Below, piece after piece: positions 738 through 5,339 of a stretch of DNA of 5,526 bases. Within the stretch, counting starts at the first letter, position 1; the number at the start of each line of letters is the position of its first letter. The stretch lies in assembly GCA_905479905.1 (NCBI GenBank), contig CAJQOK010000221.1, forward strand, positions 1 through 5,526, in the 5' to 3' direction. This DNA is from an uncultured Aliterella sp. (lineage in GTDB: Bacteria; Cyanobacteriota; Cyanobacteriia; Cyanobacteriales; Chroococcidiopsidaceae). A program made the position numbers and the translations under genes. Under the pieces are notes generated by a model that did not search any database, was not told the DNA's origin, and worked only from the letters and a program-made list of their open reading frames with translations.

Positions 738-2033
738 CTAGGGTTTTATTTTGAGTTTTTGAAGATGATGTGAAGTAATAAAACCAGTAATACCTGCTGC
801 TAATGCCATTATTACACCACTATTTCGCACCGCCGCCCGACTATTAACTGGAGATAACAGACTTCCTACGAAAACAATTGCAACAACAGCTAAGGCACAG
901 GCAATTCCTACAATGCTATTAGTAACCCCTTTCTTCTTTGCTGGGTGGGTGTTGGGGAGTTTTTGAAGATAATGTGAAGTGATAAAACCAGTAATACCTG
1001 CTGCTAATGCCATCATTACACCACTATTTCGCACTGCTGCCCGACTATTGACTGGAGATAACAGTTGTCCTCCAAGAGTAATTGCAGTTAAAACTAAGAT
1101 ACAGGTAATTCCTACAATACTGGCAGTCTTCCATTTCTTATTTGTCAACGCTAAACTATTCAAACTCAGTTGCGATACCTGAGTGCAATCTTGGTCATCT
1201 GCTACAAACACTTTAGGTGAAACGGTAGTAATAGACTCAACCGTAGCACCAGGAAAGATATCAACACCAAGTTTTGCTTTTCTTTCACACCAATAACACT
1301 TACCGTAACTCCGGCTGTGATGATGACTGTCTACCTTTCCACAAATTGTTAAATCGTTAACCGCCACTTGTAAGACATTGTGCCAATCTTCAGCCGTTGG
1401 GCGTAATTTAGGCGATGAGTGTCCGTCGTTAAAGCATTTGAGAAAAAGTCGCTTAATTTCTGGATGGACAACATCAAGCGGAATTGTAGTTTGACTAGGG
1501 CGAATTAAACTATTGTTACCGTCGTACCACAAGCCTTTGCGGATAAGTTCGGTTTGATCTGGCGATTCCCCCGCGCCCGTCCACTCGCCAGAAAAAGGAT
1601 GGTAGCCAAAGAGTAAGTAGTGAATCAACACCGCTAGACGAAAGCGATCGCATATCTCAGTCTGATCTGTAGTAGAAAAATCTTTCCCTAATAGTTCCAC
1701 AGGTGTAAAACCATCAGAACCAACAGTACAACGGTAGACTTTCCCTGTCTTGGAGTCACGCACTTGAAAAGAATCAGTATCAATCACTGCTACCAAAGCG
1801 CGATCGTTAACTAAAATATTCTGCGGCTTGATATCGCCTAAAACATAGCCTTTCTCATGAATTGCTTGAATGATCCAGGCAGTATTTAAGGCGGTAACGT
1901 GGAGGTAATACCAGTTAAACCCCGGAGCATTTTTCTTCCGCAATCTGGGATGATAAATACTCGGAAGTTCTCGACTACTGCGAACGGCTGGCATCAAAAA
2001 GCCGACACAATTACCACCCGCGTCTAATAGCAA
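738..2033 (-). CDS. Kinase catalytic part with zinc-ribbon-like segment and duplicated membrane anchor
   Basis: This is the part after the internal stop, counted from a TTG at 2033 (431 codons). The first ATG is at 1994. Neither start has a visible Shine-Dalgarno, so independent translation is doubtful. LGDIKPQN at 65-72 is the catalytic loop: Gly replaces the His of HRD, while Asp67, Lys69 and Asn72 are kept. DTDSFQ at 85-90 stands in place of DFG, keeping the metal-binding Asp85. SDGFTPVELLG at 106-116 is the activation/APE-like region and RPTAEDW at 211-217 lies near the end of the C-lobe. C231, a His cluster at 237-239 and C246-x2-C249 look like a small zinc-binding knuckle. Four hydrophobic helices follow at about 303-325, 338-352, 372-393 and 406-420. 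The last two repeat the first two. The kinase would face the cytoplasm with a C-terminal anchor. HIP1 is absent from the anchor region. Confidence 0.6.
   Translation of the reverse strand: MLLDAGGNCVGFLMPAVRSSRELPSIYHPRLRKKNAPGFNWYYLHVTALNTAWIIQAIHEKGYVLGDIKPQNILVNDRALVAVIDTDSFQVRDSKTGKVYRCTVGSDGFTPVELLGKDFSTTDQTEICDRFRLAVLIHYLLFGYHPFSGEWTGAGESPDQTELIRKGLWYDGNNSLIRPSQTTIPLDVVHPEIKRLFLKCFNDGHSSPKLRPTAEDWHNVLQVAVNDLTICGKVDSHHHSRSYGKCYWCERKAKLGVDIFPGATVESITTVSPKVFVADDQDCTQVSQLSLNSLALTNKKWKTASIVGITCILVLTAITLGGQLLSPVNSRAAVRNSGVMMALAAGITGFITSHYLQKLPNTHPAKKKGVTNSIVGIACALAVVAIVFVGSLLSPVNSRAAVRNSGVIMALAAGITGFITSHHLQKLKIKP
753..935 (-). repeat. Tandem repeat, distal copy (two-helix membrane module)
   Basis: This copy aligns without gaps to 957-1139 at a shift of 204 bp (68 codons, frame kept). 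By hand count, 753-860 matches its partner at 102 of 108 positions, while 861-935 matches at only 51 of 75. The well-conserved part encodes the SPVNSRAAVRNSG linker and the second helix (MALAAGITGFITSH). The less conserved part encodes the first helix. Confidence 0.9.
957..1139 (-). repeat. Tandem repeat, proximal copy (two-helix membrane module)
   Basis: This is the partner of 753-935 and lies closer to the kinase domain. It encodes a first helix (SIVGITCILVLTAITLGG), the SPVNSRAAVRNSG linker and a second helix ending HYLQKL. A 21-base spacer encoding PNTHPAK separates the copies. Only two residues differ within the 108-bp conserved block (Met/Ile and Tyr/His). Confidence 0.9.
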
Positions 2034-2069
2034 ATCTTGGGGAAAAGCTATAGAAATATGATTTTTGCT

Positions 2070-2264
2070 TTACATCGGATCTACGGGCGGATTTGCCAGC
2101 ATTGCCTTTAGCTTGGCGATTCTCTCTGGTGTTGAATCGTGATAAATCTTTGCTAAAATGCCGCTAAAATTAGTTTCCCAAACTTCTCCTTCACCGCTAC
2201 TAGCAATTTTATTACCCAAAGAAACAGTTTGGCGATCGCTACTGCGAGTCAGAATTGTCATCAT
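2070..2264 (-). CDS. Kinase N-lobe fragment (ATP-binding part, 64 aa)
   Basis: This is the part before the internal stop. It carries the glycine-rich loop GEGEVW at residues 24-29 and AKIYH at 38-42, whose Lys39 is the expected ATP-binding lysine. A helix-like stretch follows (PERIAKLKAMLANPP). Alone it is too short to fold as a kinase. Two ATGs are adjacent (2264 and 2261); I give the first. There is no strong Shine-Dalgarno, and the start lies inside the last codons of the PP2C gene, so initiation probably depends on ribosomes finishing that gene. Confidence 0.55.
   Translation of the reverse strand: MMTILTRSSDRQTVSLGNKIASSGEGEVWETNFSGILAKIYHDSTPERIAKLKAMLANPPVDPM
2232..2239. repeat. HIP1 palindrome GCGATCGC
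   Basis: This octamer is over-represented in many cyanobacterial genomes. This copy lies in the kinase N-lobe codons and touches the PP2C stop codon. Others are at 1644-1651, 2505-2512, 3020-3027 and 4737-4744. None occurs in 1-1600. Confidence 0.9.
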
Positions 2265-3039
2265 AGCAGCACAAAAGTAAGGTTTTATCGTCGTCAGTTC
2301 GGGAATTTAGCCTGTCAGAATTTAGAAAACTCATTAAATATGTGTCTTCTTGTTCGGGGTTGCTGGTTTCTTGCAGATATTCCTCAAACGGCGCAAAGAA
2401 AGGCGCAAAAGGTGTAAAGTCACTCATCTTAATTGCTACTCTTTCTAATCCATCGGTTGCCGCAAAAATATACTCGCTCTTGCCTGTGATTACTTCTACC
2501 CGCAGCGATCGCAAAGCATTAGCGGAAGTAACAAAAGTTGTCTCGTTGACGTACTCGCCTTTATCTGGTGGAAACAGCAATTGATAGCTTTCTTGCTGAC
2601 AGCGCACGGCAATAAATCCATCGCCAATTTGCATCGCCGCCACCCAATTAGGAGTCGCCACAAATACCAAAAGTGTACAAGCTAAGTCTTCAAATAAGTA
2701 ACCATCCCTTGCTGCTTGGGTTGCCAGCGCATCAATTACCTTTTTAGTCATTTTGGTAAAAATTTTGCTGGCTTGTTCCTCAGAAAGCGGCTGCGGGTGA
2801 GACTGCCAAAAGTGTTTTTGTTTTTGCAACCACCTTTCTATATTTGTAAGAAATCCCAAAGCTCTCTCAACGGCTAATTTAGCGCCAATTTCGGCGTACT
2901 TAGCACTACCTGCACCATCAGCTACAGCCCCAATAATGACGTTATTTAAGACCTTGTAGCCACCGTAGTCTTGACAGGGCATTTGCTTCTTAATATGACT
3001 TGTTCCAACGGTGGAACGGGCGATCGCTCTCCACTGCAT
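2239..3039 (-). CDS. PP2C-family protein phosphatase
   Basis: This is a metal-dependent Ser/Thr phosphatase domain, 266 aa, likely cytoplasmic, expected to reverse phosphorylation by the neighbouring kinase. Motifs in order: CQD at 22-24; AVADGAGSA at 39-47 with metal-binding Asp41; TLLVFVA at 122-128; QIGDGFIAV at 137-145; ATDGLE at 194-199 with Asp196; and DDDKTLLL at 249-256, the final metal-binding Asp region. All the acidic residues expected for two metals are present, so it should be active. I chose ATG 3039 over an upstream in-frame start at 3096 because AAGGAG lies five bases before it and because the family begins close to this point (MQWRAIARSTVGTSH, then the CQD motif). It follows the vWA gene after 16 bases, and its end overlaps the kinase start by 26 bases. 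That makes it the middle gene of a three-gene operon. Confidence 0.92.
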   Translation of the reverse strand: MQWRAIARSTVGTSHIKKQMPCQDYGGYKVLNNVIIGAVADGAGSAKYAEIGAKLAVERALGFLTNIERWLQKQKHFWQSHPQPLSEEQASKIFTKMTKKVIDALATQAARDGYLFEDLACTLLVFVATPNWVAAMQIGDGFIAVRCQQESYQLLFPPDKGEYVNETTFVTSANALRSLRVEVITGKSEYIFAATDGLERVAIKMSDFTPFAPFFAPFEEYLQETSNPEQEDTYLMSFLNSDRLNSRTDDDKTLLLCCYDDNSDSQ

Positions 3040-3044
3040 AAAAT

Positions 3045-3050
3045 CTCCTT
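3045..3050 (-). promoter_or_regulatory. Ribosome binding site of the PP2C gene
   Basis: AAGGAG on the minus strand, five bases from ATG 3039, located in the 16-base gap after the vWA stop codon. It decides the start: the in-frame codon at 3096 would lie inside the vWA gene. Confidence 0.8.
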
Positions 3051-3055
3051 GTCCC

Positions 3056-3715
3056 TTATGTTGCAACTTGACCCCAACCAACGGCTGGCAATACAATCAT
3101 TGACCCGCCAACTTGGCTGCTAGAAACTCGTTTCATTGAAGTTGAGAGCCAGTGGAACATCTCTTTAAATTTCATCCCATCTAACAACACAGGCGGACGT
3201 TCTGGCACAGCAATTTGTTTGAGGGTATTCATATCTGCACCCTTTACACCGACAGCAAAAAACAATAACCGACTCTTTGCTTCAGCTTGTCTTACTTGTT
3301 GGGCGGCATCATACCAGCTATCTGTAGGCGCTCCATCGGTAAGTAAAAATACCCAAGGGCGATAGTATTGCACCCCATTATTTTTATAAGTTACTTTGCG
3401 TTGTTCTAACAAGTCCAACGAATACTCAATTGCTTCACCCATCGGGGTTACACCATCTGCAACTAATCTCGGCGAGGTGAAGTTGTCAATTGTGACAAAA
3501 TCTTGTGTCAACTGCACCGGCCCAAAAGTTACGATCGCAACTTCTACCCTCAGCGCGGCGATTTCATCTTGATACACTTCTGATTTAAAGGTCGCTAATC
3601 CTTCATTTAAAGCATCAATTGGCGCACCCGCCATTGAACCAGATGTATCGCACAGCAAAATTACCGGACAACGCGGTTCGGGGTTTTCTACAAATTCAGG
3701 CAATCCTATAGGCAT
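3056..3715 (-). CDS. von Willebrand factor A domain protein, TerY-like
   Basis: A 219-aa protein that is essentially one vWA domain. The metal-ion-dependent adhesion site is complete: DTSGS at 23-27, Thr90 in GVTPMG, and Asp127 in LLTDGAP. The strands between fit the family (VEVAIVTFG at 58-66; RLLFFAVGV at 149-157). There is no signal peptide and no membrane segment, so it should be cytoplasmic. Small stand-alone vWA proteins of this kind (TerY) form a known genomic triad with a PP2C phosphatase and a kinase, exactly the order seen here. By family knowledge it would be the phosphorylated partner or an adaptor, although its target is not visible. ATG 3715 is supported by GGAG eight bases upstream and by the usual short lead-in before the first strand. 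It is the first gene of the operon. Confidence 0.92.
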   Translation of the reverse strand: MPIGLPEFVENPEPRCPVILLCDTSGSMAGAPIDALNEGLATFKSEVYQDEIAALRVEVAIVTFGPVQLTQDFVTIDNFTSPRLVADGVTPMGEAIEYSLDLLEQRKVTYKNNGVQYYRPWVFLLTDGAPTDSWYDAAQQVRQAEAKSRLLFFAVGVKGADMNTLKQIAVPERPPVLLDGMKFKEMFHWLSTSMKRVSSSQVGGSMIVLPAVGWGQVAT

Positions 3716-3723
3716 CTGAGCAA

Positions 3724-3727
3724 CTCC
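3724..3727 (-). promoter_or_regulatory. Ribosome binding site of the vWA gene
   Basis: GGAG (within CTGGAG) on the minus strand, eight bases before ATG 3715. Confidence 0.6.
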
Positions 3728-3735
3728 AGATCAAA

Positions 3736-3765
3736 CAATTTTGACAATTGATGCCAACTAGCATC
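3736..3765. promoter_or_regulatory. Two adjoining small dyads in the vWA leader
   Basis: CAATT-5-AATTG (3736-3750) is followed directly by GATGC-6-GCATC (3750-3765), 21-50 bases before the vWA start. GATGCC recurs at 3780-3785. They could be an operator or a leader RNA fold for the triad. The arms are only five bases long, so chance is not excluded. Confidence 0.3.
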
Positions 3766-3839
3766 GCCGTCATGCTTAGGATGCCCAAATAAAACAACAA
3801 GAACGCACTGCTAGAGAGAAAAATATATTTTGATTAGAT

Positions 3840-3898
3840 ATTTTTGAAGAAATAACTAAATTAAGTAGCGGTAAAGAGCGCTTCAGTTGCAGGTATTG
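3840..3898 (-). repeat. Upstream element, copy B (upstream of the vWA/PP2C/kinase operon)
   Basis: This is the partner of 608-660, lying about 125-183 bases before the vWA start and just after the DUF2243 gene. It shares GCTCTTTAC, CTTAA, GTTATT and AAAAAT in order. Both copies precede minus-strand transcription units and both lead into AT-rich DNA, which fits a promoter-region element. No clean -35/-10 pair could be assigned. Confidence 0.5.
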
Positions 3899-3914
3899 GT
3901 AATTAAGGTAGCAT

Positions 3915-4406
3915 TTAGAAATTTACGCTACTATCTTGCTTTCCTGCTTTTAATAATATCCACCCAACTATAACCAAGATTCCCCCCAAGACAATAAAAC
4001 CAATATCCCAAATTAATTCATTAGCGCCTGGTTTAACGTGATGAATGCCTAGAATTTGATGATCGATTATGCCTTCAACTACATCAAAAGTCCCTGCACC
4101 TATGAGCATAGAGCCAAAAAGAGTGTTTGAAGATCGCGGAACATCATCGCGTTTTACGGCTTGCCATAGCAACCCTATTCCCAATACTGTTAAAATCCAT
4201 GTAGCCGCATCAAACAAGCCATCCCAAAACATATTTATCTTCATTTGCGCGATCGTTGTCGGCGGTCTGACGCTACTTAACATATGATGCCATTGCAAAA
4301 TTTGGTGTAGCACAATGCCATCTACAAACCCTCCTAAACCTAAACCTAGGATTACTCCAGCCACAATTAGCGGACGATGCACAGGTGTTTTGTTGTCTGC
4401 TTCCAC
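3915..4406 (-). CDS. DUF2243 family membrane protein
   Basis: A 163-aa inner-membrane protein of unknown function. Counting from the chosen start there are four hydrophobic segments, at about 13-31, 62-83, 96-114 and 132-153. Two His-rich motifs face each other in the two halves: DGIVLHQILQWHH at 29-41 and EGIIDHQILGIHH at 111-123. This looks like an internal duplication and a possible metal or haem site, but that is inference. The start is probably GTG 4406: AAGAGG (4413-4418) lies six bases before it, and the protein then begins a few residues before the conserved RPLIVAGVILG. A TTG at 4424 is the alternative and lacks such a site. Its ribosome site overlaps the stop codon of the methyltransferase-like fragment, suggesting former coupling to that gene. 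The triad starts 199 bases further on and is probably a separate transcription unit. Confidence 0.85.
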   Translation of the reverse strand: MEADNKTPVHRPLIVAGVILGLGLGGFVDGIVLHQILQWHHMLSSVRPPTTIAQMKINMFWDGLFDAATWILTVLGIGLLWQAVKRDDVPRSSNTLFGSMLIGAGTFDVVEGIIDHQILGIHHVKPGANELIWDIGFIVLGGILVIVGWILLKAGKQDSSVNF

Positions 4407-4412
4407 GTAAAA

Positions 4413-4418
4413 CCTCTT
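4413..4418 (-). promoter_or_regulatory. Ribosome binding site of the DUF2243 gene
   Basis: AAGAGG on the minus strand, six bases before GTG 4406. This is the reason for choosing GTG over TTG 4424. Its first base is the last base of the upstream TAA (4418-4420). Confidence 0.6.
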
Positions 4419-4566
4419 TACCAAATAAACGGAATCAATCGGCGGCTAGATTGCTGATAAGTTGCATAGTCTGCATACTTTTCAACTATTGTCTGCTCTT
4501 TTTGGGAAATGCGTTGCAGATATAGCAATGCGCTCGCACTTGGCACTATTATATAAGCCCAAATTG
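4418..4566 (-). pseudogene. C-terminal remnant of an isoprenylcysteine carboxyl methyltransferase-like gene
   Basis: The minus strand encodes about 49 codons ending at TAA 4418-4420. They read as a membrane helix (SIWAYIIVPSASALLYLQ) followed by RISQKEQTIVEKYADYATYQ and SRRLIPFIW. This resembles the end of ICMT/PEMT-like methyltransferases, where a last helix leads into E..L..KFG.EY..Y...T.RLIP. The rest of the family (earlier helices, SAM-binding part) is absent. The frame is open back to 4624, but that part overlaps the dehydrogenase in another frame and has no ATG. The only usable start would be GTG 4546, with no Shine-Dalgarno. I read it as what remains after a deletion that brought the dehydrogenase next to the tail. 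Partial overlap with DUF2243 translation signals suggests the two genes were once an operon. A real 42-aa gene is the less likely alternative. Confidence 0.5.
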
Positions 4567-4577
4567 AACCCGCTTTG

Positions 4578-5339
4578 TTAAGTTTGGCGATTAAATAACA
4601 TTGAACCCGCTTGATCGGTAGGCATTAGCAACACTTCGCTAATGTTGACATGAAGCGGACGGGTAGCGCAAAAAAGTATGACTTCTGCAACATCCATCGG
4701 CGTTAAAGGTGTAAGTCCTTGATAGACTGTTTTAGCGCGATCGCTATCTCCGCGAAAGCGCACTTGACTAAACTCCGTTTCCACCAATCCCGGATCTACA
4801 CTGCTGACTCTTACCGGAGTTCCCAAAAGGTCTTGTTTCAACCCTTCCGAAATTACTCTAACCGCCGCTTTGGTTGCACAATAAACATTACCATTAGGAT
4901 AAGTTTGGTGTCCTGCCGTCGAACCAAGATTAACTATATGACCTCTACCCCGGCTAATCATTCCCGGTACAACGGAGCGAGTTAGGTAAAGTAAACCTTT
5001 AATATTGGTATCAATCATTTCTTCCCAGTCTTGAAAATCGCCTTCTTGGAGTTTATTTAAGCCGCGACTTAAACCAGCATTATTAATCAAAATATCAATA
5101 GCTGAAACTGGTTCAGGTAAGTTAGCAAGAGCAGATTCAACAGAAGTGTGATTTCTCACATCCAGCACTAAGGGATAGGAACTATTCCCAAGTTCTTTGG
5201 CCAACTCCTCTAAACGCTCTTGTCGTCTTGCTACAAGGATTAATTTTGCCCCAGCTTCAGCAAATACCCTAGCGCAAGCTTCCCCAATCCCACTACTAGC
5301 ACCAGTAATTAAAACAGTTTGGTTTTGAATTGAAATCAT
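4578..5339 (-). CDS. Short-chain dehydrogenase/reductase, YdfG-like
   Basis: A 253-aa classical SDR, the normal length. TGASSGIG at 12-19 is the dinucleotide-binding loop. ARR at 37-39 after the second strand favours NADP(H). NNAG at 86-89 is conserved. The catalytic set is complete: Asn112, Ser140 (NLGS), Tyr153 and Lys157 (YCATK). PGLVETEF at 183-190 is the substrate-loop region. The C-terminus, HVNISEVLLMPTDQAG, is typical of the YdfG branch, whose E. coli member oxidises 3-hydroxy acids such as serine and related compounds. The exact substrate here cannot be read. It is cytoplasmic. ATG 5339 begins close to the first strand, as expected, but there is no clear Shine-Dalgarno. It diverges from the flavoprotein gene at 5465 and has no obvious link to the triad. 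Confidence 0.92.
   Translation of the reverse strand: MISIQNQTVLITGASSGIGEACARVFAEAGAKLILVARRQERLEELAKELGNSSYPLVLDVRNHTSVESALANLPEPVSAIDILINNAGLSRGLNKLQEGDFQDWEEMIDTNIKGLLYLTRSVVPGMISRGRGHIVNLGSTAGHQTYPNGNVYCATKAAVRVISEGLKQDLLGTPVRVSSVDPGLVETEFSQVRFRGDSDRAKTVYQGLTPLTPMDVAEVILFCATRPLHVNISEVLLMPTDQAGSMLFNRQT

Follow-up and report, generated by a model that had tools for sequence, protein, structure and literature searches.

The protein kinase reading frame of an uncultured Aliterella sp. is interrupted by a single in-frame TAA, and the question raised by this locus is whether the gene has been lost, is still translated into a full-length or a divided product, or is interrupted only in the draft sequence. 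The locus lies on contig CAJQOK010000221.1 of assembly GCA_905479905.1, a draft that totals 3.21 Mb across 593 contigs and is 65% complete; the window analysed here is the complete contig (C221, 5526 nucleotides). On its minus strand, the kinase frame (738-2264) is one member of a triad with a VWA-domain gene (3056-3715) and a PP2C-type phosphatase gene (2239-3096), and the TAA (2070-2072) occupies kinase codon 65, where the relatives compared have a sense codon. We consider it probable that this TAA is a recent single-base nonsense mutation which switched off a dispensable triad kinase, that is, an ordinary gene loss.

Position of the in-frame stop

In translation, the TAA is in frame with the upstream ATG (2262-2264) and with 443 downstream sense codons, which run to a TAG at 738-740. 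Upstream of the stop, a 64-codon open frame on the minus strand (2073-2264) encodes the opening stretch of the kinase N-lobe, through helix C and into the loop beyond it, as judged from the translation, the relatives and a structural model of the unbroken A. atlantica kinase. Inspection by eye showed the glycine-rich loop and the lysine in this piece, which by itself matched none of the Pfam kinase families. The part downstream of the stop (738-2069, same strand) passed PF00069 with 38.2 bits against a cut-off of 31.7, and comprises the remainder of the N-lobe, the C-lobe with the catalytic loop, a cysteine motif and C-terminal hydrophobic repeats. Residues 1-338 of the kinase frame aligned without gaps to a single reading frame of A. 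atlantica (L009). With the standard code, the TAA at codon 65 means that no single chain with both kinase lobes is encoded.

The A. atlantica model had a mean predicted local distance difference test (pLDDT) score of 79.5, and the ten-residue blocks of residues 1-100 scored 91-97. Its strands cover residues 13-22, 26-31, 36-41, 77-80 and 86-92, with a helix (46-57) between the third and the fourth; we assigned these elements as the putative strands 1-5 and helix C. Residue 65 falls in the predicted loop that joins helix C to strand 4, and the cut therefore lies inside the N-lobe, not between the N-lobe and the catalytic loop, where the initial annotation had placed it. A PDB sequence search and a fold search returned general kinase matches.

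The stop codon column among relatives

A DNA search of the species-genome collection gave 27 related loci; L028 and L034 do not reach the stop column, and the other 25 carry a sense codon there without exception. Because the search was run on DNA, this count is free of annotation bias; the matches of L029 and L030 are identical, and the 25 loci may therefore be 24. These two loci are titled Holosporaceae and Verrucomicrobiales, and at least one of the bin labels may be wrong. Protein conservation was counted on the best 120 of 982 homologues, a set biased to open frames because it consists of called proteins, and all 120 have a residue at the stop column. The column lies in a variable loop with ten kinds of residue (L 52, S 22, K 18, A 15, I 4, R 4, N 2, V 1, F 1 and Q 1).

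In the closest congener, G001, whose DNA is 93.2% identical to the window (4295 aligned columns), the column is a lysine codon, one substitution from TAA. Lysine is also present in P0002, the closest among the proteins listed (92% identity, 96% query coverage, same C-terminus), the first residues of which match neither the window nor the other relatives compared. The comparison of this codon in orthologous triads, which had been proposed as a check in the initial annotation, thus found the stop in no relative compared, and the locus has the appearance of a young pseudogene, with a broken frame and intact relatives.

Constraint on the remaining kinase

Within residues 1-338, the window kinase deviated at none of the 104 columns conserved at ≥95%, nor at any of the 103 conserved columns of a narrower range. 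The same holds for 38 of the 120 homologues, and the window kinase is thus among the best preserved but unexceptional. The pairwise ratio of non-synonymous to synonymous substitution rates (dN/dS) to A. atlantica was 0.089 before the stop (residues 1-64) and 0.088 after it (66-338), and 0.110 and 0.171 for the neighbouring VWA and PP2C genes, respectively. The initial annotation had described a single in-frame TAA in an otherwise intact kinase, and had seen no further decay beyond it; the first statement is confirmed by the shared frame of the 64 and 443 codons and by the conserved columns, and the second holds within the kinase domain. Since the remaining domain is undecayed, the stop is either recent or not real. 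No relaxed selection was visible in the window kinase by either the conserved columns or dN/dS, as would be expected if the break were very recent.

Changes were also split between the branches leading to the window and to G001, with A. atlantica as outgroup; each base was taken apart, and the few apparent changes to a stop in codons with multiple differences (one on the window branch, two on that of G001) are artefacts of this procedure. The counts of silent and amino-acid changes on the window branch were 23:14 in the kinase, 13:0 in VWA (219 codons) and 8:11 in PP2C. On the G001 branch VWA had seven silent and 12 amino-acid changes, against 13:0 in the window (Fisher p 0.0004), a G001 count that takes in the codons around a deletion in that gene. 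These ratios cover the whole period after G001 and the window diverged, and a mutation late on the branch would therefore leave no trace in them; they speak for a stop that is recent or unreal, not for a working gene.

The triad across the genus

The VWA, PP2C and kinase genes are adjacent and co-directed in the window, and the same order was found at L067, L068, L069 and L070. Among five congeners, the triad kinase is intact in one (A. atlantica), broken in one (G001), and in three only a paralogue of 42-45% identity was found. The best matches in G003, G004 and G005 (88%, 100% and 74% complete, respectively) were 56-57% identical for VWA and 37-40% for PP2C, and no triad was present within 10 kb of the DUF2243 locus of G003.

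The triad of G001 (L066 2419-4908) resembles that of the window in occupying the same place, beside DUF2243 and SDR, with 93% DNA identity, but differs from it in its sense codon 65, in one-base deletions in VWA (near window position 3550) and in the kinase (near 1528), and in its kinase C-terminus. Three of the 104 conserved columns deviate in the G001 kinase; W246V is found at the frame break and W29C beside the glycine-rich loop. The triad kinase of A. atlantica CENA595, the nearest named relative in this comparison (L009, P0008; 'helix-hairpin-helix domain-containing protein' at NCBI) shares with the window the order VWA-PP2C-kinase and 90% protein identity over residues 1-338. In contrast to the window kinase, it has a sense codon at the column, another C-terminus and, at a different locus, other genomic neighbours, and no triad was seen within the 8 kb read at the SDR-DUF2243 locus of A. 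atlantica. The triad is patchy in the genus, where the G001 operon has been broken independently by other mutations, and the comparison suggests that it is dispensable there. A separate PP2C gene lies beside the kinase paralogue in all six genomes checked, and loss of the triad kinase may therefore be buffered by this pair.

Probable loss of the triad kinase

If the TAA is a nonsense mutation, translation would stop at 64 residues and yield an N-lobe fragment devoid of the catalytic loop. The first ATG, GTG or TTG in frame beyond the stop is a TTG at 2031-2033, 36 bases on, and a product begun downstream, for example at this codon, would be devoid of the glycine-rich loop and the ATP-site lysine. 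As each piece would have lost either the catalytic loop or parts of the ATP site, neither would be expected to phosphorylate; VWA and PP2C could still be made. The mutation may be fixed or merely a strain polymorphism. The initial annotation had left three outcomes side by side for a real stop, namely a triad that has just lost its kinase, readthrough, and two chains. The first is favoured by the unshared stop, the undecayed domain and the independent break of the G001 operon, and the other two gained no support, as set out below.

Several points weigh against a recent gene loss. The assembly, with the completeness and number of contigs given above, is weak, and the absence of the triad from G003 and G005 could be missing data. 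The kinase branch ratios of the window (23:13, one artefact dropped) and G001 (28:34, none dropped) did not differ significantly (Fisher p 0.094, a value that with these inputs is if anything too small). Constraint is not uniform across the whole triad, and the branch ratio of the window PP2C (about 0.37) is near that of the broken G001 kinase (about 0.34). Finally, with no sign of relaxation, sequence alone would not separate a very recent loss from a draft error or a tolerated stop.

If the gene has been lost, the case would be an ordinary one, in which an accessory signalling operon is caught as it is newly taken apart; the lineage of G001 is taking this operon apart too, through other mutations, and the broken and intact alleles form a matched pair. 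Its import would be greater only with a demonstration that the TAA is read through.

Draft error, readthrough and divided chains as less likely readings

We regard it as unlikely, although the strongest of the rival readings, that the TAA is an assembly or sequencing error, the true codon being a sense codon and the kinase whole. The fragmented and incomplete state of the draft is in favour of an error, as are the conserved columns and dN/dS, which resemble those of a working gene. Internal stops were also found in two of the 51 PF00005 matches and one of the 19 PF00069 matches of this genome, and G001 and the congeneric genome G002 gave one stop-bearing PF00005 match among the matches listed, of 161 in total; across five genomes, no stop was found among the PF00072 matches listed. 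On these small numbers, broken genes or errors may be somewhat more frequent in the draft than in its relatives. However, the VWA, PP2C, DUF2243 and SDR genes of the window are all unbroken, and none of the 60 PF00072 matches in this genome contains a stop. In addition, VWA has no amino-acid change on the window branch, and a high base-error rate is therefore disfavoured.

Leaky or programmed readthrough at the TAA, yielding the full-length kinase at a reduced level, appears improbable. The column is tolerant, being a loop position with ten kinds of residue, and the two sides of the stop are equally constrained. The available part of Belinky et al. 2021 (PMC7918605) presents in-frame stops in bacterial genes as widespread, many of them at dN/dS below 1 and many not pseudogenes, and the window resembles these cases in having a single stop in an otherwise constrained gene. 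The same part of that paper, however, describes the vast majority of orthologous stops as short-lived, roughly as single-nucleotide polymorphisms (SNPs), and the window stop, which unlike those of that set is seen in one genome only, fits this SNP-like time scale. Readthrough is further opposed by the use of TAA to terminate three neighbouring genes. The stop is shared by none of the 25 loci and none of the 120 proteins, and RNA after it (126 nucleotides from just before the stop) was no more structured than shuffles (z -0.12, from one sequence and one method), giving no stimulatory structure. A conserved or programmed stop is unsupported, since no relative compared has it, and the readthrough proposed in the initial annotation gains no support from these data. 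It would be a very long shot that this lineage tolerates in-frame stops, such as the kinase TAA and stops in ABC (ATP-binding cassette) ATPases, with low-level readthrough serving as a dose switch on accessory genes.

That the kinase is now made as two separate working chains, as had also been envisaged, is scarcely credible: both pieces are intact as sequence, but the predicted cut within the N-lobe makes two complementary chains unlikely, none of the 25 column-covering loci is split there, and no ribosome-binding site was seen by eye at the TTG downstream. A reassigned TAA was rejected, as TAA closes three frames of the window (VWA, DUF2243 and SDR); TAG ends the kinase and PP2C frames, in agreement with the earlier view that both codons are normal stops here.

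Other stop-bearing or unusual frames were noted in these genomes. ABC transporter ATPase domains with one stop each are present at G000:C181:8452-8871 in the genome studied here (TAA, L071) and at G001:C6:60798-61217 (TAG, L075); a stop shared within the genus was rejected, since four codons separate the two positions. A second ABC ATPase copy in G001 is stop-free in the stretch read. At G000:C461:13084-13554 (L072), an ABC exporter frame has an apparent short in-frame insert with two TAG codons between the signature motif and Walker B. On G000:C127 (L006, L073), a frame judged CHASE2-like by eye runs into the latter portion of a kinase domain whose N-lobe is missing, the result of either an internal deletion or a misassembly. 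The kinase match of L006, which contains a TAA, was rejected as a parallel to the window kinase, as its stop is near the end of this frame without a kinase N-lobe.

Comparison with known systems

In its three-gene make-up the window triad is analogous to the TerY-P defence triad of Gao et al. 2020, which the available part of PMC7699616 describes as a VWA protein, a Ser/Thr phosphatase and a Ser/Thr kinase. In PADLOC-DB 2.0.0, the kinase pieces, PP2C, VWA and P0002 gave no match named TerY-P, in a library whose holding of TerY-P models was unchecked. VWA and PP2C matched no PADLOC model, and the kinase weakly matched only mad6, PD-T4-6 and MkoA. A plasmid search returned 59 records, all below 60% identity. 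No publication on this kinase was found at the level of titles and abstract openings, and PMC12587747 contains neither 'pseudogene' nor 'stop codon'. At least some of the literature matches to 'tery' were locus tags of Trichodesmium. A Helicobacter pylori pan-genome paper (PMC4978471) reportedly contains the words TerY and triad.

The kinase tail and neighbouring genes

Past about residue 340, the kinase C-terminus differs among congeners that share about 90% identity in the kinase domain. The tail consists of hydrophobic repeats in the window (738-1250), is OB-like by eye in G001 (L066 1846-2420) and is of another kind in A. atlantica (L009 4817-5179). The C-terminal repeat of the window kinase is encoded by a tandem duplication on the minus strand (753-1144), with two copies of 188 nucleotides that are 84% alike. 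Homologues among the matches listed bear TPR, WD40, sulfatase-modifying and other domains, some of which we take to be such from their Pfam numbers. The tail looks to have been swapped as a module.

The minus-strand order of the window is SDR (4578-5339), DUF2243 (3915-4424), VWA, PP2C and then the kinase frame. The SDR and DUF2243 genes are unbroken and each ends in TAA. Of the other triad members, both intact in the window, VWA matched PF00092 (E 1.6e-9) and ends in TAA, and PP2C matched PF13672 (E 1.4e-50) and ends in TAG; the PP2C coordinates are those of the longest open reading frame, and the start in relatives points to 3037-3039. Scans of 1900-3900 for promoters and terminators gave numbers of sites about equal to those in shuffles. 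Between DUF2243 and SDR, positions 4425-4577 are a remnant of a 208-residue gene that is complete in G005 (L084 624-1250); relative to G005, the window is without some 480 bases here, and the alignment of G001 with the window has no such gap. Lastly, a 47-base stretch at 664-710 of the window occurs twice more near the G001 triad (L066 1246-1292 and 1666-1712; 83% alike).
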